Both the position numbers and the translations under genes were made by a program. A stretch of 18,097 nt of DNA, taken from positions 1-18,097 of the forward strand of contig JAPUIL010000614.1 of NCBI GenBank assembly GCA_027297085.1, written 5' to 3'. Each line of letters begins with the position of its first letter. Within the stretch, counting starts at the first letter, position 1. This stretch comes from Verrucomicrobiota bacterium. GTDB taxonomy: Bacteria > Verrucomicrobiota > Verrucomicrobiia > Opitutales > UBA2995. The notes below the pieces were generated by a model. It was given only the letters and a program-made list of their open reading frames with translations. It ran no database searches and was not told where the DNA came from. Shown piece by piece: positions 1-17,237 of this stretch.

Positions 1-246
1 TCTGAAGCGCCCAAAGCCGAAAAGCCAAAGGCCGAAGAGCCTGAAGCCGAAAAGCCAAAGACCGAAGAACCTAAAGCCGAAAAGCCGAAGACCGAAGAAC
101 CTAAAGCCGAAGCACCAAAGTCTGAAGCGCCCAAAGCCGAAGAACCTAAAGCCGAAAAGCCGAAGCCTGTAGAACCTAAGGCTGAAAAGGCCAAAGCCGA
201 AGAAACCAAGGCGGAAGCTCCTAAATCCGAGAAAGTTGAAGCTCCT
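1..246 (+). repeat. 15-bp coding tandem repeats (xExPK pentapeptides) in the rpsK extension
   Basis: About 16 consecutive pentapeptide units can be read in frame 1, for example [20 protein letters not shown] and AEKAK, followed by degenerate units. At DNA level the units are 15 bp, often paired into a 30-bp period: 61-81 closely matches 91-111. The block 1-21 recurs exactly at 121-141, which suggests expansion by slippage or unequal recombination. Lys/Pro and Glu alternate, so the segment should be extended and disordered, like the Glu-Pro/Lys-Pro linkers of TonB-type proteins. It begins before the window, so the total copy number is unknown. Confidence 0.85.
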
Positions 247-744
247 AAGGCTGACGGCAAAAAGGAAGGCGAGCCCGCCGAAGCTGTTGCTTCCGAAGGA
301 TCAAAAGAGGAAGAAAAGAAGGAGGCCACCACAGTGAAGGATCTCCTTAGCGACGGCCTTGGCAATATAAAGGTTCGCCGTGCCAAAGGCAGCAAGAATA
401 TAACCCACGGAGTGGTGCATGTAATTGCGACCTTTAATAATACCAAAGTCACCGTGACAGACACCAAAGGAAACGTTATTTCCTGGAGCAGTGCCGGTAA
501 ATGTAATTTCCGTGGATCACGCAAATCCACCGCTTATGCCGCTCAGGTTGTCACTCAAGATGCCACCCGTGCCGCCATGGCCCACGGTTTGAAAGAAGTT
601 GAAGTTCACCTCAAAGGGCCAGGTTTGGGAAGAGATTCTGCCGTCCGTGCCTTGCAAGCGCTTGGTATGATCATTGTCGCTATCGTAGATAAGACGCCCG
701 TTCCTCACAATGGTTGCCGCCCTCCAAAACGCCGCCGCGTATAA
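1..744 (+). CDS. rpsK: 30S ribosomal protein S11 with long repetitive N-terminal extension (5' end outside window)
   Basis: S11 is a 30S platform protein that contacts 16S rRNA near the mRNA exit region. The canonical domain is encoded from about 334 to the stop: it shows FNNT, the FRGSRKST block, [14 protein letters not shown] and the C-terminal [13 protein letters not shown] signature. Bacterial S11 is usually about 129 residues, and from the GTG at 334 the product would be 136. The same frame is open with no stop back to base 1. It adds at least 111 residues rich in Lys, Glu, Pro and Ala, organised as xExPK pentapeptides, so the true start may lie upstream of the window. Internal initiation at GTG 334 is also possible because AAGGAGG precedes it by 8 nt. 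The next gene, rpsD, starts 20 bp downstream, in the standard alpha-operon order. Identity of the S11 domain is certain. Which start or starts are used is open. Confidence 0.95.
318..336 (+). promoter_or_regulatory. Internal Shine-Dalgarno and GTG start within rpsK
   Basis: AAGGAGG occupies 319-325, with 8 nt between it and the GTG at 334-336. Initiation here would give a 136-residue protein of nearly canonical S11 length. Most other starts in the window have no SD, which makes this perfect one notable. The bases also encode Lys-Glu-Ala in the extension, so chance cannot be excluded. Confidence 0.5.
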
Positions 745-764: not shown

Positions 765-1373
765 ATGTCTCGTTACACAGGACCCACCACCCGTATCAAT
801 CGCCGTTTTGGAATGGCGATTTTTCCGCCTAACAAAGCATTTGAGCGCAAGGGCTATCCACCCGGGGTTCATGGCCCTCGCCTTCGTCGCAAACAAAGTG
901 ACTACTCGATCGGGCTGAATGAAAAGCAAAAGCTTCGCTTTATGTATGGCATGACTGAAAAACAGTTTCGCCGTACCTTCGAACAGGCAAAGCGAGCCAA
1001 GGGTGTAACCGGGGAAGTTTTCCTGCAACGCCTGGAAACCCGGCTGGATAATGTTATCTACCGTTTGAATCTTGCTAAGACCCGTTCCAGTGCCCGTCAG
1101 TTCGTCAACCACGGACACATCAAAGTCAACGGACACAAGGTGGACATTTCCAGTTATCAAGTAGAAGCTGGTGACGAAATCGAAGTCAAGGATTCGACTT
1201 CTTCACGGCAGCTTGCCACCCGTGCGTTGGACGAAACCCGCGCCCGCACTATTCCTGACTGGGCTTCCCTCGCGGAAGACACCTTTAAAGGAAAAATTAA
1301 CCGTCTGCCTTCTCGTGACGAGATTGAGGTAGGCATCAATGAGCAGCTCATTGTTGAATTTTACAGCCGTTAG
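765..1373 (+). CDS. rpsD: 30S ribosomal protein S4
   Basis: S4 is a primary 16S rRNA-binding protein that nucleates assembly of the 30S body, and in many bacteria it represses its own operon. The 202-residue length is standard. The N-terminal domain (1-90) has the RYTGP start, the KGYPPGVHG block and the LRFMYGMTEKQF helix. The S4 RNA-binding domain covers about 91-150, with RLDNVIYRL, ARQFVNHGHIKVNG and the VEAGDEIEV strand. The protein ends in LIVEFYSR. The N-terminus has none of the zinc-binding cysteines found in the C+ form of S4. It lies 20 bp after rpsK and 42 bp before rpoA. No SD is visible; the upstream bases are AT-rich (ATCATTTAGT before the ATG). Confidence 0.98.
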   Translation: MSRYTGPTTRINRRFGMAIFPPNKAFERKGYPPGVHGPRLRRKQSDYSIGLNEKQKLRFMYGMTEKQFRRTFEQAKRAKGVTGEVFLQRLETRLDNVIYRLNLAKTRSSARQFVNHGHIKVNGHKVDISSYQVEAGDEIEVKDSTSSRQLATRALDETRARTIPDWASLAEDTFKGKINRLPSRDEIEVGINEQLIVEFYSR

Positions 1374-1415
1374 TTTTTACACACTTATACACTAATAATT
1401 ATCTCCTATTGTTTT

Positions 1416-2414
1416 ATGGCCACTCGATTAGGAAAATTCGAAATACCAAACCGCCTCACGAAAGACGAAGAGAGCTCCAATGAAACTTATGCTAAGTTCG
1501 TAGCCGAACCTTTCGAAGCTGGTTATGGGCATACCATCGGCAATACATTGCGCCGTGTACTTCTTAGCTCTATTGAAGGAGCCGCGATTTCTTCGATCAA
1601 AATTGAAGGCGTTAATCATGAATTCCAGAGTGTTGACGGAATTGTTGAGGACATCACGGACGTGGTACTGAACCTCAAGAAAATCCTCCTGATCAATCAT
1701 AAGCGGGAATCGATTAAGCTTCTGCTAGATGTGACCAAGGAAGGAGAAGTCACGGCAGCTGATATTCAGCCCGACTCCAATATTGAGATTATCAATCCCG
1801 ATCAGGTTATTTGCACGCTCGACCATGAACAACGTCTGTTCGCCGAGTTGGAAGTTAAGGTAGGCCGTGGGTATGTTCCTGGAGATGAGAACAAATCTGA
1901 AGAAGATCCGATTGGCGTTATCCCCATCGATTGTCTTTACAGCCCGGTGCGTCTTGTAAAATACAGCGTTGAGAATACCCGGGTGGGTCAAATAACCGAT
2001 TACGACAAATTGATTCTGGAAATTACTACTGATGGACGGATCACTCCAGACGATGCTCTGAAACACGCAGCTTCAATCCTGAAGCACCACCTGGATGTCT
2101 TCGACAAGGTGAGCGATGAAGACATTGAGTTCGAAAGCGAAGGATCAGAAGTCAGCGAAGAGCAAAACAAGCTTCGCAAGCTGCTCAACATGAGTGTCAA
2201 CGAAATCGAACTTTCCGTGCGTGCAGCCAACTGCTTAAACAACGCCAACATTACGACCGTTGGTGAATTGGCCATGAAGTCGGAGCAAGAGATGCTCAAG
2301 TACCGCAACTTCGGTAAAAAATCTCTGAATGAAATTAAAGCCAAACTGGAACAACTCGGCCTGTCGTTGGGGATGAAAATTGATGAGCGCCTCCTTGATA
2401 CCCGGATCGACTAA
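1416..2414 (+). CDS. rpoA: DNA-directed RNA polymerase subunit alpha
   Basis: RpoA dimerises to scaffold assembly of RNA polymerase, and its C-terminal domain contacts UP elements and activators. The 332-residue length is typical. The N-terminal domain (about 1-230) shows the GYGHTIGNTLRRVLLSS assembly motif near residues 36-52 and the late segment ILKHHLDVF. An acidic linker (about 231-252) leads to the C-terminal domain. That domain carries VRAANCLNN, with Arg269 and Asn272 at the positions of the DNA-contacting residues of E. coli alpha, and the helix-hairpin-helix NFGKKSLNEIK. The gene sits in standard order between rpsD and rplQ. There is no SD before the ATG; the upstream stretch is pyrimidine-rich (CTCCTATTGTTTT). 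Confidence 0.98.
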   Translation: MATRLGKFEIPNRLTKDEESSNETYAKFVAEPFEAGYGHTIGNTLRRVLLSSIEGAAISSIKIEGVNHEFQSVDGIVEDITDVVLNLKKILLINHKRESIKLLLDVTKEGEVTAADIQPDSNIEIINPDQVICTLDHEQRLFAELEVKVGRGYVPGDENKSEEDPIGVIPIDCLYSPVRLVKYSVENTRVGQITDYDKLILEITTDGRITPDDALKHAASILKHHLDVFDKVSDEDIEFESEGSEVSEEQNKLRKLLNMSVNEIELSVRAANCLNNANITTVGELAMKSEQEMLKYRNFGKKSLNEIKAKLEQLGLSLGMKIDERLLDTRID

Positions 2415-2434
2415 GTTCCTACTGTTCATTCAAA

Positions 2435-3022
2435 ATGCGCCATTTAAAACACAGACATGAATTAGGGGTAAAGAAAGCCCACCGCATGGCCCTTATGGCC
2501 AACCTCGCGTGTGCTCTCATTAAAGAAGGCCGTATCAAAACGACCTTGGCCAAAGCCAAGGCTCTACGCCCCTTTGCTGAAAAGTTGGTTACCCTGGCAA
2601 AACACGGAACTCTGGCTGACCGCCGGTTGGCCAATAGCAAGTTGCGCAATAAGGAAGCGTTGCAATTGCTCTTCAATGAAAAAGTAGAAGAGTTTAAAGA
2701 CCGGCCCGGAGGGTATACTCGTATTTACAAGATTGGTAATCGCCTCGGTGACGCTGCGGAGATGGCCATTATCGAACTCATTCCTGCCGCCGACGAAGGT
2801 TATGGGAAGAGAAAAAAGAAAAAGGCCAAAAAAGCTGCCAAGAAAACGGTTGAAGAAAAGCCGGTAGAAGTAGAAGTCGCGGCAGAAGCTGAGATAGAAG
2901 AGCCTGAAGCCGAAGGGGAAGAAAAGAAAACCGAAGAACCGGTTGCGGACGCAGAGGAAGCTCCGGACGCTGAAGCCGCCGCTGAAGAAGAACCCCCCGC
3001 CGAGGAAGAAACCAAGCAATAA
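2435..3022 (+). CDS. rplQ: 50S ribosomal protein L17 with charged C-terminal extension
   Basis: L17 is a 50S protein near the polypeptide exit tunnel. Residues 1-118 are the canonical domain: it opens MRHLKHRHELGVKKAHR, continues through LIKEGRIKTTLAKAK, and ends in the GGYTRIYKIGNRLGDAAEMAIIEL block. Typical L17 is about 120 residues and this protein has 195. The extra 77 residues are strongly biased: a basic stretch at about 125-137 (KRKKKKAKKAAKK), then an acidic Glu/Ala/Pro stretch to the end. The tail is probably disordered. It recalls the charged extension on S11 in the same operon. The gene follows rpoA by 20 bp, has no SD, and is the last ribosomal gene before a hairpin. Confidence 0.97.
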   Translation: MRHLKHRHELGVKKAHRMALMANLACALIKEGRIKTTLAKAKALRPFAEKLVTLAKHGTLADRRLANSKLRNKEALQLLFNEKVEEFKDRPGGYTRIYKIGNRLGDAAEMAIIELIPAADEGYGKRKKKKAKKAAKKTVEEKPVEVEVAAEAEIEEPEAEGEEKKTEEPVADAEEAPDAEAAAEEEPPAEEETKQ

Positions 3023-3056
3023 CCTTTGGAGGACTTTTTACTATAAACTCTTTTTC

Positions 3057-3085
3057 CCAACGCGCCTGAAATCCGGGCGCGTTGG
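3057..3085 (+). terminator. Hairpin after rplQ, probable end of the ribosomal operon
   Basis: A perfect 10-bp stem pairs CCAACGCGCC (3057-3066) with GGCGCGTTGG (3076-3085) around a 9-nt loop. It starts 34 bp after the rplQ stop. The downstream tract is only TGTTT, so termination may be partial. The 3' arm ends 8 nt before the ATG of the next gene, so the hairpin could also affect translation of that gene. Confidence 0.6.
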
Positions 3086-3093
3086 TGTTTACG

Positions 3094-3327
3094 ATGATTC
3101 CCATTAGCCTGGCAGACGGATTTTTTATTTACCTCATCCTGGGGATAGGAATGGTTTTCGGCTTGTGGGCTTACTACGATTTCCGGGATAAAAATTTGTA
3201 TCAGGCTGAGCGGTCAAAAACAGTTTATCACTGTGTCAAATGCGGCAAGATTTATGCTGATAAGATGGGAGTGAAACAGTCCAATTGCCCACGCTGCAAA
3301 TTTAAAAACACTCATTTGCAATTCTGA
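3094..3327 (+). CDS. Small membrane protein with C-terminal zinc ribbon
   Basis: The product is 77 residues and I do not recognise a named family. Residues about 8-28 form one hydrophobic membrane segment ([19 protein letters not shown]). A short charged linker follows. The C-terminal domain has two CxxC knuckles (Cys47/Cys50 and Cys65/Cys68), spaced like a rubredoxin-type or ribosomal-type zinc ribbon. The segment is probably a signal anchor; by the positive-inside rule the Arg/Lys-rich linker places the ribbon in the cytoplasm. The ATG at 3094 is preferred over an in-frame TTG at 3082, which would lie inside the preceding hairpin. The gene ends 2 bp before guaA, so the two are probably cotranscribed. 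Function is unknown. Confidence 0.75.
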
Positions 3328-3329
3328 TT

Positions 3330-4868
3330 ATGGCCGAAGTTGTCGCCGTTCTAGATTTTGGTTCCCAATACACGCAGGTCATCGCACGCCGGCTGAGAGA
3401 ATGCCAGGTCTACTCGAAAGTATATCCGTTTTTTACGACCGCGGAGTCGCTCAAGGAGGAGGGTGTTAAAGGAATTATCCTCTCTGGAGGTCCCTCCAGT
3501 GTGTTTGCTGAAACTGCGCCGAAACCGGACACGGCTATTTTCAATTTAGAGGTGCCCGTAATGGGTATCTGTTACGGACTCCAATTGCTGGGTTTTCTGT
3601 TGGGAGGTAAGGCCGAGCACAGTGAGGAACGCGAATACGGTAAGGGAACTTTAACGATCACGGAAGACAGTCCGCTCTTCGAAGGCATTAACAAAACCAT
3701 CCGGGTTTGGAATTCTCATGGCGATAAACTGACTCAACTTCCGGAAGGATTCAAACCCGTTGCCAGTACAGAAAATAGTGCATTCGCGGCCATTGAAAAC
3801 CGGGAGCGCAATTTCTATGGATTGCAATTTCACCCCGAGGTGTTTCATACCGAGCAGGGAACGGATATCATTCGAAATTTTGTTTTTTCCATCTGCGGGT
3901 GTACCGGAGATTGGACGATGGAAAGCTACATCGAAAGCTCGATAGCCGCCATTCACGAACGTGTAGGCGACAAGAAAGTGATTCTCGGATTAAGTGGAGG
4001 CGTCGATAGCTCTGTCGCCGCGAAATTGATCCACGATGCCATCGGACCTCAACTCACCTGTGTGTTCGTCGATAATGGATTGCTTCGAAAGAAGGAACGT
4101 GAAGCGGTGGAAAAGCTCTATGGCGATCACTTCCAGATCAATCTTGTGGTTGCGGATTCATCTGAGCTCTTCCTCGGTCGCTTGGCGGGAGTTACGGATC
4201 CTGAACAGAAGCGCAAAATAATCGGCAACACCTTTATCGAGGTATTCGAATCAGAGGTCGATAAAATCGGTGAAGTGGACTTTCTGGCACAGGGGACCAT
4301 TTATCCTGATATCATCGAAAGCCTCCCCATTGACGGAAATCCGGCTTCCTTGATAAAAAGCCATCATAATGTAGGTGGGCTGCCGGAGCGCATGAAACTC
4401 AAGATACTCGAACCACTCAACCAATTGTTTAAGGATGAAGTGCGTCTGCTGGGAAAGAGCCTTGGTCTGCCGGACAATGTAGTCTGGAGGCAGCCTTTCC
4501 CGGGTCCCGGATTGGCGGTTCGGATTTTGGGCGATATCACCGCCGATAATTTAAAGGTTCTGCGAGGAGCCGATGCCATCTTGCTCGAAGAAATGAAAAA
4601 GGCGGACATGTATTACAAGGTATGGCAGTCTTTCGCTGTTTTCCTTCCCGTTCGAACTGTTGGAGTGATGGGGGATGAAAGAACTTACGACAATGTCATC
4701 GCTTTAAGAATTGTTGAGAGCGTGGATGCCATGACTGCTGACTGGGCTCAACTCGACCATGACCTGCTCGCCAAAATTTCCAATCGTATCATCAACGAGG
4801 TCAAGGGTGTGAATCGAGTAGTGCTCGATATCAGTTCAAAACCACCTAGTACCATCGAGTGGGAATAA
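3330..4868 (+). CDS. guaA: GMP synthase (glutamine-hydrolysing)
   Basis: GuaA converts XMP, ATP and glutamine to GMP in the last step of guanine nucleotide synthesis. The 512-residue length is typical of the fused two-domain enzyme. The class I glutamine amidotransferase domain (about 1-190) has the nucleophile Cys81 in GICYGLQ and the His168/Glu170 pair in QFHPE. The ATP-pyrophosphatase domain follows, with the P-loop SGGVDSS at 222-228. The C-terminal dimerisation domain has the XMP-binding stretch FPGPGLAVR and ends in the conserved PPSTIEWE. It starts 2 bp after the zinc-ribbon gene and no SD is seen. No terminator is evident before the next gene 67 bp downstream, so read-through is possible. 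Confidence 0.98.
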
Positions 4869-4935
4869 CTTAAGATTTGGGTTGAACATTGGACGAATAT
4901 TGGAGTCCTATAGCGTCTGTCCCTATGACTCGACC

Positions 4936-5718
4936 ATGAACTTCGATTCTATTAAAACTCCTTTTTTGCGTATCCTGCCAAAGGTGTTTTTGGTTCCTGT
5001 AATTGCCAGCGTTTTGCTCGGTGCTTTTAGCTTTGGTGCTCAGGCAGATCCCCAAGTAACGGCCATATTAACAAAAGCTCGAAGCTACATTGGAAAGGAG
5101 ACCGTGCTGAATGAGATTCAAACTCTGCGCTTCAGAGGCACAATTTCCACTCCCGAAGGAGATCAAACCGCCATTGTAATTAATTTGCGATCACCCCATA
5201 AGCAATTGCAGATCCTTACTAGTAAGGAAGTAGTGCAGGAGGTTGGTCTCAATGACTATGAGGCCTGGAAAAAAGTATACCGGATCAATCAACCAGATAT
5301 CTACCAGCTAATTCCTTATACGACTGATCAGTTGAAGCGAGTAAGAGCTAATACCTTTGAAAATTTAAATTTCTTTTCGCCGGTAACCAGTTATAACCGT
5401 AAACTGGAATACGCCGGTCAAGAGACTATCGATGGTGAGGTGGTTGATAGAGTAAAAGTCATTTATGGAAGTATCTTTTATATTCGATATTTTAAGCGCT
5501 CCAATGGGCAGTTGTTGCTGACTGAAATCGAAACCGGGGAGCGCATTCAGGAAAGCGGAGAAATGAATGTTGGAGGCGTACGATTTCCAGATACGTTAAC
5601 GTCCTACATCGACGGTAAGGAAATCCATCGAATTGTGTTTGACTCCATTGAAGTAAATCCAGACTTGGATGAATCCCTCTTCACGCAGCCAGCACTCCCT
5701 GGTCCGAGGAAAAAATAG
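4936..5718 (+). CDS. LolA-like exported protein (outer-membrane lipoprotein-sorting fold)
   Basis: The product is 260 residues from the ATG at 4936. An in-frame TTG at 4882 would put 18 non-signal residues ahead of the signal peptide. Residues about 1-37 look like a Sec signal peptide: basic residues, then FLVPVIASVLLGAFSFGAQA with an AxA cleavage site. The mature part reads as beta strands typical of the LolA/LolB-like half-barrel: RFRGTISTPEGDQ, DYEAWKKVYRIN, DGEVVDRVKVIYG and a closing IEVNPDLDESLF segment, which is common in LolA-like proteins. Such proteins bind lipoproteins or lipids in the periplasm, but this one may not be the true LolA chaperone. Its TAG stop directly abuts the hisD ATG, which points to translational coupling even though the functions are unrelated. 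Confidence 0.75.
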   Translation: MNFDSIKTPFLRILPKVFLVPVIASVLLGAFSFGAQADPQVTAILTKARSYIGKETVLNEIQTLRFRGTISTPEGDQTAIVINLRSPHKQLQILTSKEVVQEVGLNDYEAWKKVYRINQPDIYQLIPYTTDQLKRVRANTFENLNFFSPVTSYNRKLEYAGQETIDGEVVDRVKVIYGSIFYIRYFKRSNGQLLLTEIETGERIQESGEMNVGGVRFPDTLTSYIDGKEIHRIVFDSIEVNPDLDESLFTQPALPGPRKK

Positions 5719-7014
5719 ATGCCTGTCTTAACCTTTGGAACGGCTGGCTTCTTAAAACGGCTAAAGTCGTTTGCCGAAGATGCCGCGGGTTCCCCGCAGG
5801 TGGAATCCATCGTATCCGGAATCATCAATTCAGTTCGGACGGGGGGAGACAAAGCACTGTTTGATATAACGGAGAAACTCGATGGCCCCCGGTTGACAGC
5901 CAAAACTCTCAAGCTGACTGACGCTGAATTGAAGAGGGGCGAAAATAGTCTTACCGCCAAGGATAAGAGGGCCATCCGGGAGTCAATCCGTTGTGTCAAA
6001 GCCTTCAACCGGAAATCCGTTCCAAAGAATTGGACAGCTAAGAACCTGCACGGAGCAAGCGTGGGGGAGCGCTTTTATCCGATCAATCGTGTGGGGATTT
6101 ACGTGCCCGGTGGCAGTGTGCCCTTGGTGTCTACGGTCATTATGACAACCACCTTGGCCAAGATAGCCAAAGTCCCGCAAATTTGTGTTTGTACGCCTCC
6201 CGATAAAGAGGGTGGCATCGCTCCAGCAATGGCGGGTGTTTTATCTCTCTGTGGAATTAGGGAGCTGTATAAAATTGGCGGTGCTCAAGCGGTTGCCGCC
6301 ATGGCCCTTGGCACAAAGTCCGTCCCGGCAGTCGATAAAATTTTTGGTCCCGGCAATGCGTTTGTGAACGAAGCCAAACGCCAGATGTTCGGAGTTGCGG
6401 GTATCGACCTTCTGCCTGGACCCAGTGAAGTGATGGTGATCGCCGATGCTGGCGCCCAACCGCAATTTGTGGCCGCGGACCTCTTGGCGCAAGCCGAGCA
6501 TGGGTCTGGAAAAGAGAAAATCTACCTGGTATCTACATCCGCTAAGCTGATAAGTGCTGTTGATTCGGCTATCGAGAAGCAACTGCCGGAGCTTTCACAT
6601 AAAGACGCTATTAGGCGAGTGCTGAAAAATAACTTTGCTATCATTCGGGTTCCCAATCTGGAAGCAGCGGCGGAAGTGGCTAATTTTGTGGCTCCGGAAC
6701 ATATGGAGTTACAAGTGGCATTCGATAAGATCGCCCAAATGACACGTCAAATTACCACTGCCGGAGCAATTTTTCAGGGTGGTTATACGGCAACCGCATT
6801 GGGTGATTTTACAGCCGGCCCGAGCCACGAGCTTCCAACCGGTCGAGTGGGTCGATTCTCAAGTGGACTCACCGTTGCAGACTTTTTCCGTAGAAGTAGC
6901 GTGGTTCATTATGAGAAGAACCACGTGAAGAAAGCCGCTGAGACTATCGACGTATTCTCACGGTTAGAAAAACTCGACGCCCACGGTAGATCTGTATCTA
7001 TTCGGGCAAAGTAA
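5719..7014 (+). CDS. hisD: Histidinol dehydrogenase
   Basis: HisD catalyses the last two steps of histidine synthesis, oxidising L-histidinol to L-histidine with NAD and a zinc ion. The 431-residue length is standard. Visible hallmarks are RVGIYVPGG (about 124-132), the GPGNAFVNEAKRQ block (210-222) and LPGPSEVMVIAD (232-243). The predicted zinc ligands are Gln258, His261, Asp363 and His422, and the catalytic pair Glu327/His328 lies in APEHMEL. All key residues known from the E. coli enzyme are present. The ATG follows the preceding stop with no gap (TAGATG), and a GAGGA at 5706-5710 gives a plausible SD. hisC follows after 21 bp. Confidence 0.98.
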   Translation: MPVLTFGTAGFLKRLKSFAEDAAGSPQVESIVSGIINSVRTGGDKALFDITEKLDGPRLTAKTLKLTDAELKRGENSLTAKDKRAIRESIRCVKAFNRKSVPKNWTAKNLHGASVGERFYPINRVGIYVPGGSVPLVSTVIMTTTLAKIAKVPQICVCTPPDKEGGIAPAMAGVLSLCGIRELYKIGGAQAVAAMALGTKSVPAVDKIFGPGNAFVNEAKRQMFGVAGIDLLPGPSEVMVIADAGAQPQFVAADLLAQAEHGSGKEKIYLVSTSAKLISAVDSAIEKQLPELSHKDAIRRVLKNNFAIIRVPNLEAAAEVANFVAPEHMELQVAFDKIAQMTRQITTAGAIFQGGYTATALGDFTAGPSHELPTGRVGRFSSGLTVADFFRRSSVVHYEKNHVKKAAETIDVFSRLEKLDAHGRSVSIRAK

Positions 7015-7035
7015 CGAGATCCACTCGCAATCACT

Positions 7036-8136
7036 ATGCAACCGATTCCGTCCATAATTGACCGGGCGCTTGCGCATGTCCAAGCGTTGGAAGCGTATGT
7101 ACCCGGAAAACAACCACAGGAGGCTGGTTGGATTAAGTTGAACACCAATGAGAATCCTTACCCGCCGAGCCCACGCGTGAAAACAAGCATCGCTAAGTTG
7201 ACTGGGGATCCTTTGAGGAAGTATCCAAATCCGATCAGTGCCAAGTTGAGAGAATCTTTAACTGCTCATTTTGAGTTACCGGGTGCGGATTGGGCTTTTG
7301 TGGGTAACGGTTCGGACGAAGTACTCAATCTTCTGATACGCGTCTTTTGCGACCAGGAGAAGAGTGGGGGATATATGGTTCCGAGTTACTCTTTATACCC
7401 TGTGCTTCTCGACATCCAGAATGCAAAGACGGTGGTTGTGCGTTACGATAGTTCCATGGAACTTCCTGTTAAGGATGTGGCGAATTGTGGTGCGCATATC
7501 TTCTTTCTTACTTCGCCCAATGCTCCAACCGGGGTGGGAATACCGGCGGATGCCATTCGCGAGTTGGCTGAAACCTTTCCAGGTATTCTGGTAGTGGACG
7601 AAGCCTACGGCGCCTTTGCGGAGGAAGATGCCGTATCTTTGGTTGAGAAATACTCCAATCTTTGTGTCACAAGAACATTTTCCAAGTCCCACTGCTTGGC
7701 AGGCATGCGTATTGGTTGTCTTCTGGGTAACCCGGACTTCGTGCAATTGCTCGACAAGGTGCGCGATAGTTACAACGTTAATGTCCTCTCTCAAGAGGTG
7801 GGTCTGGCTGCCCTTTCCGACACGGATTATTATGAGGGGGTGGTCACAAAAATTAAACAAACGCGCGATTTTTACATCAATGAATGGCAAGGAAAGGGTT
7901 GGTTCGTTTATCCGTCCCAGGCAAACTACATCTTTACCCAGCCGGTTAATTCCGTAGCTGAAAAGGGACCGGAGGTGGCCAAATCGTTGTTTGACTTTCT
8001 GCGGGGAGAAAAAATTCTGGTACGTTATTTTGGAAACGATCCTCTGACTGATTCCTTTCTTCGAATCAGTGTGGGCTCCGAATCCGACATGTTAACCTTA
8101 AGTGAAGCGATCGACCAATGGCTGAAAAACGCATAG
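7036..8136 (+). CDS. hisC: Histidinol-phosphate aminotransferase
   Basis: HisC is a PLP-dependent fold-type I aminotransferase that converts imidazole acetol phosphate and glutamate to L-histidinol phosphate. The 366-residue length is normal. Signatures are [13 protein letters not shown] near the N-terminus, RKYPNP, the [11 protein letters not shown] cofactor loop, SPNAPTG with Asn162, DEAYGAF with Asp188 and Tyr191, and the PLP lysine Lys217 in [14 protein letters not shown]. That lysine loop is slightly unusual: many HisC proteins read SKAFGLAGLR. There is no SD before the ATG. The 3' end overlaps hisB by 19 bp, which suggests translational coupling. Confidence 0.97.
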
Positions 8137-8717
8137 CCTCCATCACCCGCAAAACAGCGGAAACAGATATCGCACTGACCATCAATCTGGATGGAACAGG
8201 GGAATATGAGGTGGATACAGGTATCCCCTTCTTTGACCACATGTTGTGTCTGTTTTCCAAACACGGTTTATTTGACCTCAACCTGAAGGCGAGCGGCGAT
8301 TTGGATGTGGATTATCACCACACGGTGGAAGATGTTGGAATTGTTTTGGGCGACGCCATCAAGGAAGCGCTGGGAGATAAACTGGGTATCAGGCGCTATG
8401 GATTTTTTATCCTGCCCATGGACGAATCCTTGGCACGTGTGGCCATGGATCTGAGCAACCGTCCGTATTTACATTACGAGGTACAGTCTCCGGCTAACTA
8501 CATCCGCGATTTCAACATCGTGCTCATTCGGGAATTTTTCCAGGCTGTGGTAAACAGTCTGAGTGCAAATATTCACCTGAAAGTCGAATACGGCGATGAA
8601 CCGCACCACATCGTGGAAGCGTTGTTCAAGTGTTTTGCCCGAGCTCTGGATGCAGCTACATCTATCGATCCGCGAACCGAAGGCAAATTGCCGTCGACTA
8701 AGGACATGCTTACCTGA
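8118..8717 (+). CDS. hisB: Imidazoleglycerol-phosphate dehydratase
   Basis: HisB dehydrates imidazole glycerol phosphate to imidazole acetol phosphate, a manganese-dependent step just upstream of HisC. The 199-residue size marks the monofunctional enzyme, without the histidinol-phosphatase domain fused to it in E. coli. The repeated metal-binding motifs are intact: GIPFFDHML (His41), [10 protein letters not shown] (His67, His68, Glu71) and [11 protein letters not shown] (His163, His164, Glu167). The ATG lies inside the end of hisC, in a different frame. No SD is visible, so initiation probably depends on coupling. hisH begins 10 bp after the stop. Confidence 0.98.
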
Positions 8718-8727
8718 GGAGAAATTC

Positions 8728-9357
8728 GTGAAACCAAAATTAGCAGTAATAGACTACGGTATGGGAAACCTGCGTAGTGTCTCCAAGGCATTCGAAGCAT
8801 GTGGTGCGGAAGTGACGCTCGTTACCGGACCGGAGCAGGTAAATGGCTCCGCCGGGTTAATATTGCCAGGCGTGGGTGCTCTGGGCGATTGCATCGAAGG
8901 CCTGCGTGCCTGCAACTTGATTGATACGGTTAAAGGTTGGATAGCGGAAGACCGTCCCTTTTTCGGAGTGTGTCTAGGATTCCAGGCACTTTACGATTAC
9001 TCGGAAGAAGGATCGGTAAAGGGGTTGGGCATCTTCCCCGGCCAGGTAAAACGGTTTCAATTGCCCGATACTTACAAAGTGCCTCACATGGGATGGAATT
9101 CGGTGACTTTTGCCGATACTGGCGATTCCATTGTCGAAGGGCTCAATTCGGAAGAGGATCAATTTTATTTCGTACACAGTTACTATGTCGCTCCCGAAGA
9201 AGCGCTCACTACTTTTTTCCAAACTGATTACGGCAGCTCATTTGCTAGTGGTATCAAAGTTGGTAATTGCGTAGCTACACAGTTTCACCCGGAAAAAAGT
9301 CAGAAAAAAGGACTAACTCTCTACCGAAACTTTCTGAAATTAGTTGAAAATAACTAG
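8728..9357 (+). CDS. hisH: Imidazole glycerol phosphate synthase, glutamine amidotransferase subunit
   Basis: HisH hydrolyses glutamine and passes ammonia to HisF, which makes IGP and AICAR. The GTG at 8728 is chosen because GAGGAG at 8716-8721 precedes it and it gives a 209-residue protein beginning KPKLAVIDYGMGN, the usual HisH N-terminus. An in-frame ATG at 8596 lies deep in hisB and is unlikely. The class I amidotransferase triad is present: Cys82 in GVCLGFQ, and His187 and Glu189 in QFHPEK. PHMGWN, typical of HisH, is also there. The partner gene hisF, and hisA, which often follow hisH, are absent here because gltA comes next. Confidence 0.97.
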   Translation: MKPKLAVIDYGMGNLRSVSKAFEACGAEVTLVTGPEQVNGSAGLILPGVGALGDCIEGLRACNLIDTVKGWIAEDRPFFGVCLGFQALYDYSEEGSVKGLGIFPGQVKRFQLPDTYKVPHMGWNSVTFADTGDSIVEGLNSEEDQFYFVHSYYVAPEEALTTFFQTDYGSSFASGIKVGNCVATQFHPEKSQKKGLTLYRNFLKLVENN

Positions 9358-9410
9358 TGAGTGCGGAGAATCTTTCTTTTACACGGAATCAATTTCAGCA
9401 GTTTTAGTAT

Positions 9411-10691
9411 ATGTCAGAGACAGCCACCATAACCATCGAAGGTAAGCAATACGAATACCCGGTCATATCCGGAACTGAGGGTGAAAAAGCGGTAGACGTT
9501 CGCAAACTACGGGGAGATACCGGTTACATCACCTACGACGATGGTTACGGAAATACCGGCTCATGCCTAAGTGACATCACATTTGTCAACGGTGAAGTGG
9601 GTATTTTGCGTCATCGGGGTATCCCCATTGAGGAACTTGCCGAACACTCTTCCTTTCTGGGCACTTCTTTTTTGGTGATCTATGGGCACCTTCCTTCAAA
9701 CGAGGAGATGGCTGCTTTCAGTGATCGCATCTCCAGAAATGCCGATTTGCATGAGGACTTTCGTCACCATTTCTCCGGATTCCCCACCGATGCTCATCCC
9801 ATGGCCGTTTTGAGTGCCATGCTGAATGCGGTGGGTTGTTATCACTCGGAGATGACTTCCAACAACCGGGAGCAAGACCTTGAGCATTTTGACCGTGCCG
9901 CGGCGTTGTTGATCTCAAAGGTTCGAACGATTGCTGCGATGACTTACCGCATGGGGGCGGGATTGCCCTTTGTATCTTCGCGCGAAAATATCGGATACGT
10001 TGAGAATTTCCTGCATATGATGTTTAGCGAAGAGGGCGCCGAGTATCAAGCAACGCCGGAAATCTCTCGTGCACTTGATTTATTTTTCCTGCTGCATGCC
10101 GACCACGAGCAAAATTGCTCCACCTCCACGGTCCGGATGGTGGCTAGTGGCGGAGCTAATATGTTCGCTTCAGTATCGGCGGGTGTATCCGCACTTTGGG
10201 GTCCACTACACGGTGGAGCTAATACCGCGGTGGTAAAGATGCTCCAGGCCATCCATGATACCGGTGATGACGGCAGTAAGTTTATCGAAGCAGCCAAGTC
10301 TGGCAAAGCGCGTTTGATGGGCTTTGGTCACCGTGTGTATAAAAACTATGATCCGCGCGCAAAGATTCTTGGAAGCGCAACAGAAGTACTTCTTGGGAGT
10401 CTTGGGCACTCGGATCCTTTGCTGGATATCGCTCGCCACCTGGAAAAAGCTGCGCTTGAGGATGAGTATTTTATCGAACGAAAACTTTACCCCAACGTCG
10501 ATTTCTACAGCGGTCTCATCTTGAAGGCGGTGGGTATTCCCGTGGAAATGTTTACGGTGATGTTTGCTATCGGTCGTATGCCGGGATGGATTGCCAACTG
10601 GCGAGAGATTGCCACGGGCTCCAAGCGCATTCATCGGCCAAGGCAGATCTACACCGGTAAGGTTGATCAACACTTCGTATCCGCGGAGTAA
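9411..10691 (+). CDS. gltA: Citrate synthase (type II)
   Basis: Citrate synthase condenses acetyl-CoA with oxaloacetate to start the TCA cycle. The 426-residue size and the N-terminal beta domain ([19 protein letters not shown]) fit the hexameric, often NADH-regulated, Gram-negative type. Predicted catalytic residues are His267 in PLHGGAN, His307 in [15 protein letters not shown] and Asp364 in PNVDFYSG. The middle stretch [19 protein letters not shown] is characteristic. The ATG is 53 bp after hisH in an AT-rich leader without an SD. It may be the end of the his transcript or have its own promoter; the sequence does not settle this. The next gene is convergent. Confidence 0.97.
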
Positions 10692-10731
10692 CGCGAATAG
10701 CGGACGAAGCTGAATGGCTCCGCAAGGCGGA

Positions 10732-11466
10732 TCACTTCGGCGCTTTCTTAGGCGGTTCGTGCATCATTTCTTCAAGCTTTAAGCCGGTCAGGTTACCTAA
10801 GCTCGAAATGAGTTTCCAAAGTGCGATCATCATGATGACGGTGCTTGGAATAGCGATCACCGGCCAACTTAGAGCGTTCATCTTGCCGAGTTCGGCATTG
10901 AACTCCGCCAGGTTATCTGCCGGGTGAGTGGTTACAATGATCCGTGCCAGGAAAAAGTTCAGCGCAGCACTTAATGCAAAGGAAAAGACCAACAACCAGT
11001 TACAAAATGCGAATACCTTATCGAAGGCTTGCCTTGCGTTGAACTCCTCCAACTTTTGATCAATGACCTCTGTATTCAAAATTTGGGGATTGTATAGGAA
11101 AGTTTTGATAAGAGGCCGTTTGGTACGAAAGGTAACCAATACCATGATTCCAATGGCAAATGGAATAGATGCTTCCTTTACTGCGAGCCAGTAGGGATCC
11201 ACCTCAACCAGCCCAAAGGTGCCGCTTAAGCCTACGCTTATCAATCCCAGGATCGAAATATAATTGATCTGCTTCCGGTTTAGCAAATCCCAGATTCCAT
11301 AACCGAGAGGAAAAGAAAGCCCAACCACGAGCGCCACTACCGGACCCAATTTATCGGGGCTGCTCAATTGTGTCAGGACCAGCAGCGGAATAACGATATT
11401 GAACGCAATGCTCAGTAATAGATTTTCCCGTTTTTTCGCTGGCTTGGAAGGGGTGGGTTGACTCAT
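10732..11466 (-). CDS. VC0807-like multi-pass membrane protein
   Basis: The product is 244 residues starting MSQPTPSKPAKKRENLL at the ATG ending at 11466. A 14-residue upstream extension is possible but less likely. Hydrophobic segments can be seen at about 16-34, 40-56, 66-84, 97-113, 151-172 and 201-221, so about six membrane passes are expected. The pattern (short basic N-tail, GYGIWDLLNRKQINYISILGLISVGLSG, TFRTKRPLI, then a soluble DxxLxxF segment) resembles the VC0807-family proteins of unknown function. No substrate or catalytic motif is evident. The gene is convergent with gltA and divergent from the sensor kinase. The C-terminal tail is charged and cytoplasmic-looking. Confidence 0.7.
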   Translation of the reverse strand: MSQPTPSKPAKKRENLLLSIAFNIVIPLLVLTQLSSPDKLGPVVALVVGLSFPLGYGIWDLLNRKQINYISILGLISVGLSGTFGLVEVDPYWLAVKEASIPFAIGIMVLVTFRTKRPLIKTFLYNPQILNTEVIDQKLEEFNARQAFDKVFAFCNWLLVFSFALSAALNFFLARIIVTTHPADNLAEFNAELGKMNALSWPVIAIPSTVIMMIALWKLISSLGNLTGLKLEEMMHEPPKKAPK

Positions 11467-11521
11467 GGATGCGACAGTGGGAGGCCCTAAAAGACTTGGC
11501 AATCTCATTTAGACAAGCGTT

Positions 11522-11562
11522 ATTAGGAGGCATCTTTTTAAAAATCCTAATGCTCGTTTTTT
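11522..11562 (+). promoter_or_regulatory. Hairpin and T-run in the divergent intergenic region
   Basis: ATTAGGA (11522-11528) pairs with TCCTAAT (11545-11551). The 16-nt spacer itself contains TTTTTAAAAA, and six Ts follow at 11557-11562. The element lies 18 bp before the kinase ATG. On the plus strand it resembles a weak terminator or attenuator in the leader. It could equally be an operator for the divergent pair. I could not assign a -35/-10 promoter in this gap with confidence. Confidence 0.3.
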
Positions 11563-11580
11563 AGTTCTTTGGTTTCCGAT

Positions 11581-12759
11581 ATGAAAGAAAAGCGCCACTC
11601 TCCGCTCGACCGTGTTCTTGGGCAGTTGGATCACCTGGATGAAACCAATCTGCAAAATCTGATCAACCGGCTGGCCCGGGAGCGTGAGCTATTCGAAGGA
11701 ATTTTCAATACCATCCGGGAAGGCATCCTCGTCGTCTCTAAAGAAGGCATCGTCGAATACACCAACGGCGAGGGCATGAAGATAGTCGGGCTGAAGGATT
11801 CCGATATTGGTGTAGCTGTTTTATGGAAATGGATTCCTGATCTTGCTCCAGTGATTAACATGGATGGTGCTGAACCGGACTTCGCCGAACAGGCTTCCGT
11901 CACGAGAGAGATCGAAATGACTTACCCGGAACATCGGTTCGTGCGGGTTTACATGGTGCCATTCGAAGGTTTTGAAAACCTGGATCCTCATTTCGTGGTC
12001 ATTCTCAGCGATATTACTCGTGAGGTCCTGTCCACAGAGGAGAAAATCGAATCCGAGAAAATTTCTTCCATCTTCTTACTAGCAGCAGGCGTGGCTCACG
12101 AATTGGGCAATCCACTCAATTCGCTTACGATTCATCTTCAATTGATGCAGCGTCAATTGGATCAAATTCAAGATGAAGCTATCCGCGAAAAACTACAGCG
12201 GTCGCTGTCTATTTGCAGTGGAGAAGTTGAACGGCAGGACGGAATCATAACGAACTTTCTCGAAGCTATTCGACCATCGCCCCCCGACTTCCAGGACACC
12301 AATCTGGTCGAGGTCCTTGAATCGGTTTTGCAAGTGCAAGAGCAGGAATTGCATAATTCCAAGGTGACCATTGAAATGGAGATTGGTGATGAACCTCCCA
12401 TAATTGCCGGTGACATGAACCAGATGAAGCAAGTGTTCTTTAATATCATCAAGAATGCCCGGGAAGCTATGCAGGAGGGAGGTACGCTTCACATCGAAAC
12501 ACGATCGGATGATGATTATTTTTTCGTTATCATCGCTGACACAGGTGAGGGTATAGAGAAAGAAGACTTGGCCAGCGTGTTTCAGCCCTACTACTCAACC
12601 AAATCGTCCGGCAGCGGTCTCGGCCTTATGATTGTGAATCGGATTCTCCGCGATCATGGCGGGCAAGTAGGCATTGACAGTAAACCCGGTATGGGCACGG
12701 TTATTTCCCTGAGATTTCCCAAAAAACACCGCCGGATTCGACTGTTACCTCAAGAATGA
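11581..12759 (+). CDS. Soluble PAS-domain sensor histidine kinase (NtrB-like)
   Basis: The product is 392 residues from the ATG at 11581; an in-frame TTG four codons earlier is a weaker choice. No membrane segment or signal peptide is present, so the kinase is cytoplasmic. A helix (about 15-40) leads to a PAS domain at about 38-145 (FNTIREGILVVSKEGIVEYTN). The dimerisation and phosphoacceptor domain carries His173 in AAGVAHELGNPLNSL. The ATPase domain has the N box NIIKNAREAM (Asn292), G1 DTGEG (320-324), the F-box-like VFQPYYSTK and G2 GSGLGL (344-349). The layout matches NtrB-type kinases that pair with sigma54 activators, and the next gene, 34 bp on, is one. The signal sensed is unknown. 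Confidence 0.93.
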   Translation: MKEKRHSPLDRVLGQLDHLDETNLQNLINRLARERELFEGIFNTIREGILVVSKEGIVEYTNGEGMKIVGLKDSDIGVAVLWKWIPDLAPVINMDGAEPDFAEQASVTREIEMTYPEHRFVRVYMVPFEGFENLDPHFVVILSDITREVLSTEEKIESEKISSIFLLAAGVAHELGNPLNSLTIHLQLMQRQLDQIQDEAIREKLQRSLSICSGEVERQDGIITNFLEAIRPSPPDFQDTNLVEVLESVLQVQEQELHNSKVTIEMEIGDEPPIIAGDMNQMKQVFFNIIKNAREAMQEGGTLHIETRSDDDYFFVIIADTGEGIEKEDLASVFQPYYSTKSSGSGLGLMIVNRILRDHGGQVGIDSKPGMGTVISLRFPKKHRRIRLLPQE

Positions 12760-12793
12760 GCGCTCTCGGTCCCAGCACCTCAAAAAAGTATAT

Positions 12794-14167
12794 ATGCCTG
12801 CTTCTATTCTCATTGTAGATGACGAAAAACACACCCGGGAAGGCCTGCAATTTGCCTTGGAAGATTCCTATGATGTTTACTTGGCGAGCAACGCGGATCA
12901 GGCGTTTAATCTTTTGGAAAGCCAACCATTTGATGTGGTCCTGACCGATTTACGGATGTCGGGAAAGTCAGGCATGAAGGTGATAGATGAAGCTCTCCGC
13001 ATGCCTCAGAAGCCCATCTGTATTATGATGACGGCCTATGGAAATGTTGAGACGGCCGTAGAGGCCATGAAGCGTGGAGCTTTCGATTTTCTAACCAAAC
13101 CGGTTAACCTGGAACGTTTGGATATCCTGATTAAGCGTGCCATTAATTCCAAACAGATCGAAACGGAAAACCGGGAGCTTCACCAGCGCCTCGACCAGAA
13201 ATTCAGTTTCAAAGGAATTATCGGCAACTCGTCTGCTTTGGACGCAGTCATTGAAAGAGTAAAGCTGGTTGCTCCCTCTAAAGCAACCATCCTGCTGGAA
13301 GGTGAAACGGGCACCGGTAAGGAGTTGATTGCCCAAGCCATCCACCAGAACAGCGATCGCTCGCGCAAGGCATTTATTACGGTAAACTGTGCCGCCCTTC
13401 CACCCAATCTTCTCGAAAGCGAATTGTTCGGGCATGAAAAAGGTGCTTTTACCGGAGCCATGGAAAAGCGGGTAGGGCGGTTTGAAGCTTCCCACGAGGG
13501 GACGCTTTTTCTCGATGAGATTGGAGAGATCGATGCGACGACTCAGATCAAACTCCTCCGTTTCCTTGAAACAAAAACCTTCGAACGGGTTGGCAGTATT
13601 AAGCCCATGTCAGTGGACGTGCGATTGGTCTTCGCGACCAATCAGAACCTCAAGGAGTTGGTCGAGAAAGGAACGTTTCGCGAGGATCTCTATTATAGAT
13701 TGAACGTGATTTCCATATTTCTACCACCCTTACGGGAAAGGAAGGAAGATATCGCTTTGCTGCTGAATCACTTCCTTACCTTTTACGCCAAAGACAACGG
13801 AGTGCCTGTACCTCAGTTGGATTCGGGAGCCATCCGGGTATTGGGTGAATACCGTTGGCCGGGTAACATCCGGGAGTTGAGAAACTTCGCGGAGAATACT
13901 GTGGTGCTTCATCGTGGTGCGATGATTACCGAGTACGACCTTGATAATCGTTTCAGGGAGGGCGCACCCGTAAGTGTGCACTCCGAGGGTGTCCAATCCA
14001 ATCTCTCAGTTGAGGAGAATGAAAAACACCTGCTAAGGAAAGCGCTTATACAGGCCAAGGGGAATCGGACCAAGGCCGCTGAATTGATGGGAATCTCCCG
14101 CCGCACTTTGCACCGTAAACTATTACAGTGGCCTGAGCTCGACACCACTGGTAAATCCGTATCTTAA
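12794..14167 (+). CDS. Sigma54-dependent response regulator (NtrC family)
   Basis: The product is 457 residues with the full three-domain plan. The receiver domain (1-120) has acidic Asp9/Asp10, phosphoacceptor Asp52 in VVLTDLRM, Thr80 and Lys102 in TKP. The AAA+ domain (about 140-375) has Walker A GETGTGK (170-176), the sigma54-contacting GAFTGA loop (217-222), Walker B GTLFLDE (236-242) and the REDLYYRLNV segment. A C-terminal Fis-type helix-turn-helix (about 424-444, NRTKAAELMGISRRTLHRKL) binds DNA. An intact GAFTGA and Asp52 predict a phosphorylation-controlled activator of sigma54 promoters. The adjacent kinase is the obvious partner. Targets are not identifiable here; the exported-protein gene 7 bp downstream is cotranscribed and may share the pathway. 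Confidence 0.96.
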   Translation: MPASILIVDDEKHTREGLQFALEDSYDVYLASNADQAFNLLESQPFDVVLTDLRMSGKSGMKVIDEALRMPQKPICIMMTAYGNVETAVEAMKRGAFDFLTKPVNLERLDILIKRAINSKQIETENRELHQRLDQKFSFKGIIGNSSALDAVIERVKLVAPSKATILLEGETGTGKELIAQAIHQNSDRSRKAFITVNCAALPPNLLESELFGHEKGAFTGAMEKRVGRFEASHEGTLFLDEIGEIDATTQIKLLRFLETKTFERVGSIKPMSVDVRLVFATNQNLKELVEKGTFREDLYYRLNVISIFLPPLRERKEDIALLLNHFLTFYAKDNGVPVPQLDSGAIRVLGEYRWPGNIRELRNFAENTVVLHRGAMITEYDLDNRFREGAPVSVHSEGVQSNLSVEENEKHLLRKALIQAKGNRTKAAELMGISRRTLHRKLLQWPELDTTGKSVS

Positions 14168-14174
14168 ACTTCGA

Positions 14175-15062
14175 ATGAGTGGCCAGGTATTTATTTTTAG
14201 GTTCCTTCCTTGGCTCCTTATCTTTTCGGTGGCAAACACCACACTTCTTGGAGAATCCATCCGGGTGGTTGGAAGTAACTTTGCGGGTGCAGCTCTGAAA
14301 TTGAATGCAGAGAGTTCATCGATTGCCGGTTCTTACGATGTAGAATACCTGATGTCGGGAAGCGTGTTGGGGCTAATTAAATTAAAAGAGGATTTTGCAG
14401 ACGTTGCCTTCGTTCTTCAAACTTCGGACAATCACCCTTCCCTGGAAGGGCTGACATCTATTCCGCTTGGATTTTGGGGTATCTACTTTGCAGTTGCTGA
14501 TGGAAATCCTTCCAGCGAAGTACGCATGACCGATCTTTTCGAAATCCTTCGAAAAACCCGGGACGGTTTAAAGTCGGAATGGGGGCCGTTGCTTCCGGGA
14601 GAGCCCAAATGGACCAACCGCTTGATCTTTGTTACTTTCGATCTTAAAGAATCGGATCCGTCTTATTCGATCTTCCTGGATCGATTTTTTGATAAGGTTA
14701 ACCCGGACAATTTTTCTTCGATGGGAGAAAAGATTGAAAATCCGTACCTTTCGGGGGTCTCCAATTTACTCGTTATGTCGCGCCTGCCAAAGACTGGGAG
14801 CGGACTGCGTGTGTTGTCCTTAATTCAGGAAGGGCAGAGTGTTGGTTTTCCTCCTTCTCCAGAAAGCATGTTCTTTGCCGACTATCCTCTTCATACCAGA
14901 CTGCTGCTGGTTGTGCGTGATCCCAAGGATACGAAAGTCCGTGCTTTTGTGAGAGATTTCTTCGAGAAAAACAGACTGGAATTGCTACTCCAGGCCGGGC
15001 TGGTTTCCGCTCCTGAAAACGTGCAGAAACAGACCCTTTTAGAGTTTGACTTGGATTTTTAA
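14175..15062 (+). CDS. Exported PstS-like periplasmic-binding-fold protein
   Basis: The product is 295 residues with a signal peptide at about 1-26 (hydrophobic core FLPWLLIFSVANTTLLG). The mature protein begins ESIRVVGSNFAG, like the opening strand of PstS-type phosphate-binding proteins. It continues with SGSVLGLIKLKEDFADVAFVLQ, which resembles their GSG..GI..L..G..D stretch. The segment LGFWGIYFAVADGNPSSEVRMTDLFEIL matches the region in which such proteins name the ligand-loop strand and helix. The fold call is by pattern only and the ligand is unknown. There are no ABC-transporter genes nearby. It sits 7 bp behind the NtrC-like regulator, so it is probably in the same operon and may be an accessory sensor or an output. 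It ends 27 bp before the tRNA. Confidence 0.65.
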   Translation: MSGQVFIFRFLPWLLIFSVANTTLLGESIRVVGSNFAGAALKLNAESSSIAGSYDVEYLMSGSVLGLIKLKEDFADVAFVLQTSDNHPSLEGLTSIPLGFWGIYFAVADGNPSSEVRMTDLFEILRKTRDGLKSEWGPLLPGEPKWTNRLIFVTFDLKESDPSYSIFLDRFFDKVNPDNFSSMGEKIENPYLSGVSNLLVMSRLPKTGSGLRVLSLIQEGQSVGFPPSPESMFFADYPLHTRLLLVVRDPKDTKVRAFVRDFFEKNRLELLLQAGLVSAPENVQKQTLLEFDLDF

Positions 15063-15089
15063 TTTTCTCTTACTCTGCTCCTTCAATTT

Positions 15090-15165
15090 GCGGGCGTAGC
15101 TCAGTTGGTAGAGCATAACCTTGCCAAGGTTGGGGTCGTGAGTTCGAATCTCATCGCCCGCTCCA
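15090..15165 (+). tRNA. tRNA-Gly (anticodon GCC), CCA encoded
   Basis: A complete 76-nt cloverleaf can be folded by hand. The acceptor stem pairs GCGGGCG (15090-15096) with CGCCCGC (15155-15161). The anticodon stem has four Watson-Crick pairs plus a T-G pair at the top, around a loop with GCC at 15123-15125. The T arm has loop TTCGAAT. The discriminator is T15162 and the 3' CCA is encoded at 15163-15165. The D arm has the usual AGCTCAGTTGGTAGAGC. No own promoter was recognised in the 27 bp after the previous gene. Confidence 0.97.
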
Positions 15166-15201
15166 TTTTAATTGGAGTTCAGAGTAAATTGAATCCCTAC
15201 A

Positions 15202-15231
15202 GTCTTCACCCAATAGTGGAGACCTTTTTTT
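15202..15231 (+). terminator. Rho-independent terminator after tRNA-Gly
   Basis: GTCTTCAC (15202-15209) pairs with GTGGAGAC (15216-15223), seven Watson-Crick pairs and one T-G, around a 6-nt loop. Seven Ts follow at 15225-15231. It lies 36 bp after the tRNA. Nothing else is recognised between 15232 and the next start at 15346. Confidence 0.85.
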
Positions 15232-15345
15232 GTACGAATAAGCAATTTTTTGCAGCTGTGAGAACCAAAGCTATCACTACTCTTGAATAACCTGCGGATT
15301 CTTCCTTTTCAAACAGTGGTTAATCTGTAGCTTTCTGGCTTTCGT

Positions 15346-17198: not shown

Positions 17199-17237
17199 AA
17201 TGTGACCTGTTGTGTTTTTTCTTTTTAACAAGATAAC

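Follow-up and report, generated by a model that had tools for sequence, protein, structure and literature searches.

This locus raises two questions: whether the long charged arm that precedes ribosomal protein S11 belongs to a single genome or to a whole lineage, and what such an arm may do on the 30S subunit. Core ribosomal proteins are usually held nearly uniform in bacteria, and a constrained S11 extension at the mRNA exit amounts to a plain structural difference. The window, that is, the whole stretch of DNA analyzed here (18,097 nucleotides), is an entire contig (G000:C573) of its own assembly, G000, which comprises 849 contigs and is 76% complete, and base 1 is the contig edge. Bases 1-744 of the forward strand form a single frame of 247 amino acids that is uninterrupted from base 1, and hence open for at least the 111 codons that the earlier note had counted ahead of aa 112. 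The arm encoded there is, as that note also held, a long polyampholyte, with 26 K, 32 D/E and proline and alanine fractions of 0.147 and 0.193 over 109 residues, and S11 profile matches follow downstream. Pfam Ribosomal_S11 (PF00411) matches aa 137-246 with 144.4 bits against a curated cut-off of 25.1, and NCBIfam uS11_bact (TIGR03632) matches aa 129-244 with 173.3 bits against 154.5. The S11 domain thus starts after aa 112-121, where the earlier note had placed its beginning, and these residues are instead part of a lineage-specific motif. This is the single S11 match in the 76% complete assembly, and it lies in an alpha-operon context (Table 1).

Table 1. Coordinates of rpsK, its extension and the neighboring alpha-operon genes in the window
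Feature	Position	Strand	Basis
Disordered S11 N-terminal arm, 5' end cut by contig edge	1..333	+	open frame, composition, AlphaFold2
15 in-register pentapeptides (SEAPK ... AEAPK), 15-nt period, 30-bp slippage unit	1..225	+	repeat analysis
AAGGAGG (319-325) with in-frame GTG (334-336), a possible but non-conserved internal start	319..336	+	
Conserved root motif, T111 to aa 127 (R127)	331..381	+	113 non-redundant Opitutales sequences; modelled helix 112-117
Basic patch joining arm to S11 domain	370..399	+	column conservation; NCBIfam match from aa 129
S11 domain PF00411, aa 137-246; stop codon 742-744	409..738	+	Pfam, NCBIfam
rpsD, next alpha-operon gene	765..1373	+	ORF, name by eye
rpoA	1416..2414	+	ORF, name by eye
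rplQ (L17), acidic C-terminal tail past about aa 117	2435..3022	+	PF01196 aa 20-116 of 195; TIGR00059 aa 9-116

The rest of the window offers some observations of its own. A 176-aa open frame at 3-530 on the reverse strand, opposite the arm and early S11, is probably a by-product of repeat composition. Four frames of 81-295 aa (3082-3327, 4882-5718 and 14175-15062 on the forward strand, 10732-11508 on the reverse) have no Pfam match at E 0.001. At the far end, positions 17409-18095 (reverse strand) encode a partial lysine-2,3-aminomutase-like radical SAM protein (LAM_C), perhaps of the EF-P-modifying kind, and the neighboring 259-aa frame at 16452-17231 (reverse strand), which has no Pfam match, ends in VPEPSTYGVIGAFFLSGLIYFRRRKLR, a C-terminus that we take to resemble a PEP-CTERM sorting signal.

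The S11 N-terminus across the Verrucomicrobiota

S11 was matched in 46 of 53 relatives (four of the seven genomes without a match are at least 90% complete) and, among the matches listed, in 287 of 288 genomes drawn across the phylum. The N-termini examined comprise 110 order-level loci, of which three (one being the window) lie at a contig edge, together with 69 further stretches, four of them without result, and 59 of 64 larger regions. Every one of them exceeds the length of its E. coli counterpart, the E. coli N-terminus serving as zero for these excess lengths. In the 59 genomes the excess ranges from 15 to 162 residues and reaches at least 25 in 52 of them, and all 39 genomes of the class to which the window belongs exceed E. 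coli by at least 33; in the other seven of the 59, it is only 15-23 residues, little above mycobacterial S11 proteins of 138-139 residues. The comparison of rpsK across related Verrucomicrobiota that the earlier note proposed reveals an arm of variable length in every N-terminus examined, and the idea of a fusion peculiar to one genome had to be abandoned.

Several features of the sampling bear on these figures. S11 was located by short patterns, which returned nothing in five of the 64 regions (G098, G084, G262, G078, G129) and in four of 40 stretches (G135, G173, G078, G129). In the latter four genomes, S11 is extended and carries a variant of the motif by eye, and they stand outside the motif-pattern counts; G098, G084 and G262 were left out of the N-terminus readings. 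Starts were also picked by pattern, and the value of 140 obtained for G006 is too large, the first ATG lying too early; its likely start is MSKEE, as in P0036 (204 aa). The genome sets overlap and only identical DNA was removed, which reduced 136 of 138 loci (two had no visible start) to 113 non-redundant Opitutales sequences, whereas the homologue listing and the contig search comprise the best 120 of 7996 and the best 80 of 302, respectively.

Among the 113 sequences, the arm with its variable spacer spans 20-183 residues, and 79 begin with MSEE or MAEE. Pooled dN/dS was 0.23 for the arm, 0.18 for the motif region and 0.057 for the core (533 non-independent pairs from 88 sequences), values that are lowered by aligning the pairs as proteins and by sharing sequences between pairs; at 0.23, the arm evolves as coding sequence. 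Taken together, the comparison supports the notion that the arm is an S11 N-terminal extension inherited across the Verrucomicrobiota, probably genuine and translated. Long S11 proteins stand in public databases under their plain name (e.g. P0021, P0068), and in open papers, to which the search was mostly confined, we found neither an account of a verrucomicrobial S11 arm nor a verrucomicrobial ribosome structure. Cultured relatives make the arm accessible to mass spectrometry of ribosomes and to cryo-EM.

S11 is not alone in carrying such additions. An inspection by eye of the ribosomal clusters of three genomes revealed long low-complexity additions on every S11, on two of the L17 proteins and on a single S5. 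The L17 of the window (2435-3022, forward strand) has 195 aa, its domain ending at about aa 116 and giving way to an E-, A- and P-rich C-terminal tail; within the family, the G001 protein has 197 aa and that of G006 has 140 aa and no such tail. In G136, a 214-aa frame named S5 by eye (locus L222, oriented offset 11732) bears a Pro/Ala/Ser-rich N-terminal extension, which the S5 proteins of G001 and G006 (157 and 159 aa) lack.

Repeat expansion and the start of the frame

The earlier note counted about 16 charged, Pro-containing pentapeptides in the arm, which is a fair description: the first 75 residues consist of 15 in-register pentapeptides, 13 of them with proline, and the first 110 contain 12 exact xExPK units, whereas 5000 residue shuffles gave a mean of 1.06 and never more than 5. 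At the nucleotide level, a repeat search detects a 110-nt stretch in ten copies with 15-nt spacing, and the longest exact repeat (29 nt) occurs at positions 62 and 137. Over the first 80 codons, nucleotide identity is 0.644 at a lag of five codons and 0.743 at a lag of ten, compared to maxima of 0.507 and 0.490 in 2000 codon shuffles. The note had also suggested that near-identical units of both 15 and 30 bp point to recent length change, and here the two periods part ways. Same-codon pairs are in excess at the 30-bp lag (33/47 against 25.7 expected), which bears out the longer unit, and show no such excess at 15 bp (17/42 against 21.8), where the suggestion fails; since the excess is confined to the 30-bp spacing, the slippage unit is two pentapeptides.

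The repeat itself is not conserved across homologues. Runs of at least three xxxPK pentapeptides were found in seven of the best 120 of 7996 homologues, the window being counted among them, in arms that differ in sequence, and P0023 and P0024, at 303 and 316 residues, are almost one and the same protein. Both observations indicate that the repeat is a recurrent local expansion of the spacer.

The start codon of the window S11 is out of view: the contig opens within the repeat, at base 1 of the window, and a search of G000 (849 contigs, 76% complete) returned no match for rpsM. In the 39 of 59 genomes where rpsM could be placed by script, the distance from the rpsM stop to the ATG of the arm is 5-93 nt in 38 cases and 233 nt in the remaining one; in G001, which belongs to the genus of the window, it measures 16 nt. 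The possibility of a second, internal start must nonetheless be weighed, for an AAGGAGG sequence stands 8 nt ahead of the in-frame GTG at 334, and 11 of 88 sequences have an in-frame start with an SD-like 4-mer near the root of the arm. A short S11 initiated at this GTG could then be the ribosomal form, with the long frame being little used. The 11 cases, however, sit at differing places, the seven family members have other codons at the corresponding position (GTC, GTC, CTT, GTT, CTT, ATT, ATC), the lineage of the window displays no SD enrichment, the dN/dS of the arm argues against disuse, and Lys-Lys-Glu codons easily give AAGGAGG. An internal start at GTG334 is hence rejected as a conserved feature, and we deem a short ribosomal S11 most improbable.

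The conserved root and its possible docking role

Where the arm meets the S11 domain, sequence variation gives way to a nearly fixed segment. Anchored on AKGSKN, the 113 Opitutales sequences yield the root consensus T-A-x-D-L-L-(x)7-K-(I/V)-R-(K/R)-A-K-G-S-K-N, in which D/E, the first L, K, I/V and R are present in all 113, the second L in 111, A in 106 and T in 103; in the basic patch, K, R, A, K and N are invariant, with G in 112 and S in 110. The window reads T-V-K-D-L-L at aa 111-116, V replacing the usual A (second position: A 106, V 2, L 2, I 2, G 1). Elsewhere in the phylum, inspection by eye places RRDIFAELG, TINDVFASL, NLSLDPDDIE or TAAELLGEEL at the same spot, and some verrucomicrobial lineages show no root-type motif among the genomes examined. 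A strict motif pattern, which was composed after the sequences were seen and misses versions such as KRDIFAEI, occurs in 16 of 19 genomes of the order, 6 of 25 of the class and 7 of 26 of other classes, where shuffles predict 0.35, 0.26 and 0.12. As judged from these alignments, the exact root motif is lineage-bound, and what the arm conserves is its root motif together with acidic first residues (e.g. MSEE or MAEE).

An AlphaFold2 model of the window protein, built with 95 sequences, predicts the S11 core well and leaves residues 1-111 without secondary structure (pLDDT of about 43-56), followed by a six-residue helix at 112-117. With a pLDDT of about 55, the fold of the root is a guess, and the model shows no confident packing of the motif on the S11 core. 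A conserved segment without a confident fold on its own protein would fit a docking site, and an rRNA-binding strand would look alike; the residues adjoining the basic patch may merely bind rRNA.

Our preferred reading, to which we assign a probability of roughly 0.45, is that the arm combines a docking motif and a flexible spacer on the 30S platform at the mRNA exit. The tripartite arm would then begin with an acidic segment (e.g. MSEE), continue as a disordered spacer whose length and sequence can change freely, and close with a constrained root. The root would fold as a short amphipathic helix upon binding a partner on the platform beside the mRNA exit, candidates being the neighbors bS18, bS21 and uS7, or visiting factors such as YbeY and Era, and the spacer would form a flexible bristle around the exit. 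The pentapeptides of the window would represent a slippage expansion of this spacer in units of 30 bp, with no message of their own. The location of S11 that the earlier note invoked agrees with the description of the E. coli exit site as uS7, uS11, bS18 and bS21 (PMC6133939). Likewise, YbeY and Era are linked to S11 in E. coli (PMC7515705), and in B. subtilis RNase R touches the 30S subunit at uS11 and bS18 (PMC10901742), all three facts coming from organisms outside the Verrucomicrobiota.

The main rival to docking is a tolerated low-complexity tail, an old extension drifting by slippage whose root is a lengthened rRNA-binding N-terminus with no protein partner. The wide variation of the spacer in length, sequence and sign of charge (net charge from -68 to +17 among Opitutales arms) is what such drift would produce, L17 of the same operon has similar tails in two of three genomes and none in the third, and the root adjoins the fixed basic patch. 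Yet the acidic start and D-L-L are kept across the order while the spacer changes, the hydrophobic L-L pair is odd for RNA binding, and an arm is present in every N-terminus examined. We therefore regard a tolerated tail as possible but doubtful.

Charge bears on a further alternative, in which the arm is a built-in acidic chaperone that shields basic S11 until its placement on rRNA, in the way that p32 and YBEY assist mitochondrial uS11m. A net negative charge prevails among Opitutales arms (median -6, upper quartile -1), against +10 for the S11 core, and in humans YBEY, p32 and uS11m are joined in a stable complex (PMC7515705). The reach to mRNA or the anti-SD region that the earlier note envisaged is conjectural, and an acidic charge does not favor RNA binding by the arm. 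The sign of the charge is not kept, however, arms of 60-90 residues having a median of +2 (n=34), and no single description, be it acidic shield or basic RNA-binding tail, suits every arm. An acidic shield with conserved charge is thus unsupported and, with YbeY retained in most relatives, a chaperone role seems unlikely. A loss of bS21, with S11 as its substitute, and a loss of YbeY were also rejected. PF01165 (bS21) matches 51 of 53 relatives, the two without a match being G000 and G048, and PF02130 (YbeY) matches 48 of 53; hence the arm does not replace them.

Shine-Dalgarno use and known systems

The use of Shine-Dalgarno (SD) sequences was also examined across the relatives. In the window (765-15346), an SD 4-mer precedes 1 of 15 ORF starts, against 2 at control positions, and the signal is similarly low in G001 (13/127 starts, 13 controls) and G070 (1/68, 8 controls); G040 has 10 of 77 starts against 4 controls, and G214, an SD user, 7 of 16 against none. 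G070 and G214 share the 16S 3' terminus GGATCACCTCCTTT, with CCTCC intact in the former. Further searches yielded no 16S 3' end for the genus of the window: an exact pattern matched 0 of 18, and a 910-base 16S query 0 of 10, outcomes that are uninformative and not a sign of absence. A looser pattern matched 14 of 53 genomes, exactly only in G041 and G035, and yields candidate 16S genes only; RF00177 matched two of eight genomes, both outside the order, and the profile missed 5 of 14 control genomes, so that this result is uninformative as well.

Over 59 genomes, longer S11 extensions go with weaker SD signals (rho 0.63). This trend, the low SD use in the window, G001 and G070 with the intact CCTCC of the latter, and the listing of some Verrucomicrobiota as SD-scarce with CCUCC (PMC10783764) would all suit an arm or motif that retains or masks the 3' tail of 16S rRNA, leading the ribosome to ignore SD sequences as bS21, bS18 and bS6 do in the Bacteroidia. 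The link is nevertheless seen between groups and not consistently within them. For ribosomal genes (37 genomes, each contributing 15 or more), within-group rho is 0.21 in the order (n 19), -0.83 in the class (n 6, p 0.04, of opposite sign) and -0.07 in other classes (n 12); for all ORFs (57 genomes), the values are 0.11, 0.17 and 0.56 (p 0.015 for the last). In addition, G072, G226 and G065 combine an arm and a TAAELL-like motif with SD sequences in 12/18, 11/18 and 10/17 ribosomal genes (controls 1, 1 and 0), and G120, G193, G305 and G059 have an S11 arm together with an SD signal. Given these inconsistent trends and armed SD users, a simple rule tying the arm to SD loss is rejected, and screening of the 16S tail seems to us quite unlikely. 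The arm borders on the question of start-site choice in SD-scarce Verrucomicrobiae whose anti-SD is intact, and the present data do not tie the two.

Extending the docking reading, one may speculate that the Verrucomicrobiota have a phylum-specific S11 arm whose root, docked by the mRNA exit, selects the mRNAs or factors that gain access to the 16S 3' end, and that species tune the length of this arm. We hold this to be a long shot; if true, verrucomicrobial ribosomes would initiate by rules of their own.

The docking reading can also be set against systems already described. The window protein resembles bacterial uS11 in its S11 domain (aa 129-246, above the curated cut-offs of PF00411 and TIGR03632) and in its rpsK-rpsD-rpoA-rplQ gene order (rpsD and rpoA named by eye, rplQ by PF01196), and it departs from it in size: in the 60 PDB matches listed out of 140, full-length uS11 chains from bacteria and chloroplasts mostly have 123-140 residues, whereas the window S11 has at least 247, with an arm and a root motif. 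Mitochondrial uS11m (PDB chains of 196 and 233 residues) also bears a long N-terminal addition, but this extension is organellar and lineage-specific, and the likeness noted is the presence of a long extension. Lineage-specific extensions near functional 30S sites are likewise treated in a review (PMC11764897) and, for mycobacterial uS5 and bS18, in PMC6133939; those discussed in the review are described there as flexible and positively charged, whereas the arms analyzed here are mostly acidic or balanced. The anti-SD sequestration of the Bacteroidia (PMC9976891) concerns the same corner of the 30S subunit in SD-poor organisms with an intact anti-SD, but it relies on proteins other than S11, and in the Verrucomicrobiota SD users carry arms too. 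A more distant analogy is provided by the noncatalytic region of RNase E, a disordered region whose microdomains are conserved short binding segments (PMC4435900). RNase E is an unrelated protein with known partners, and the S11 root would resemble it as a conserved short segment within a variable disordered region.
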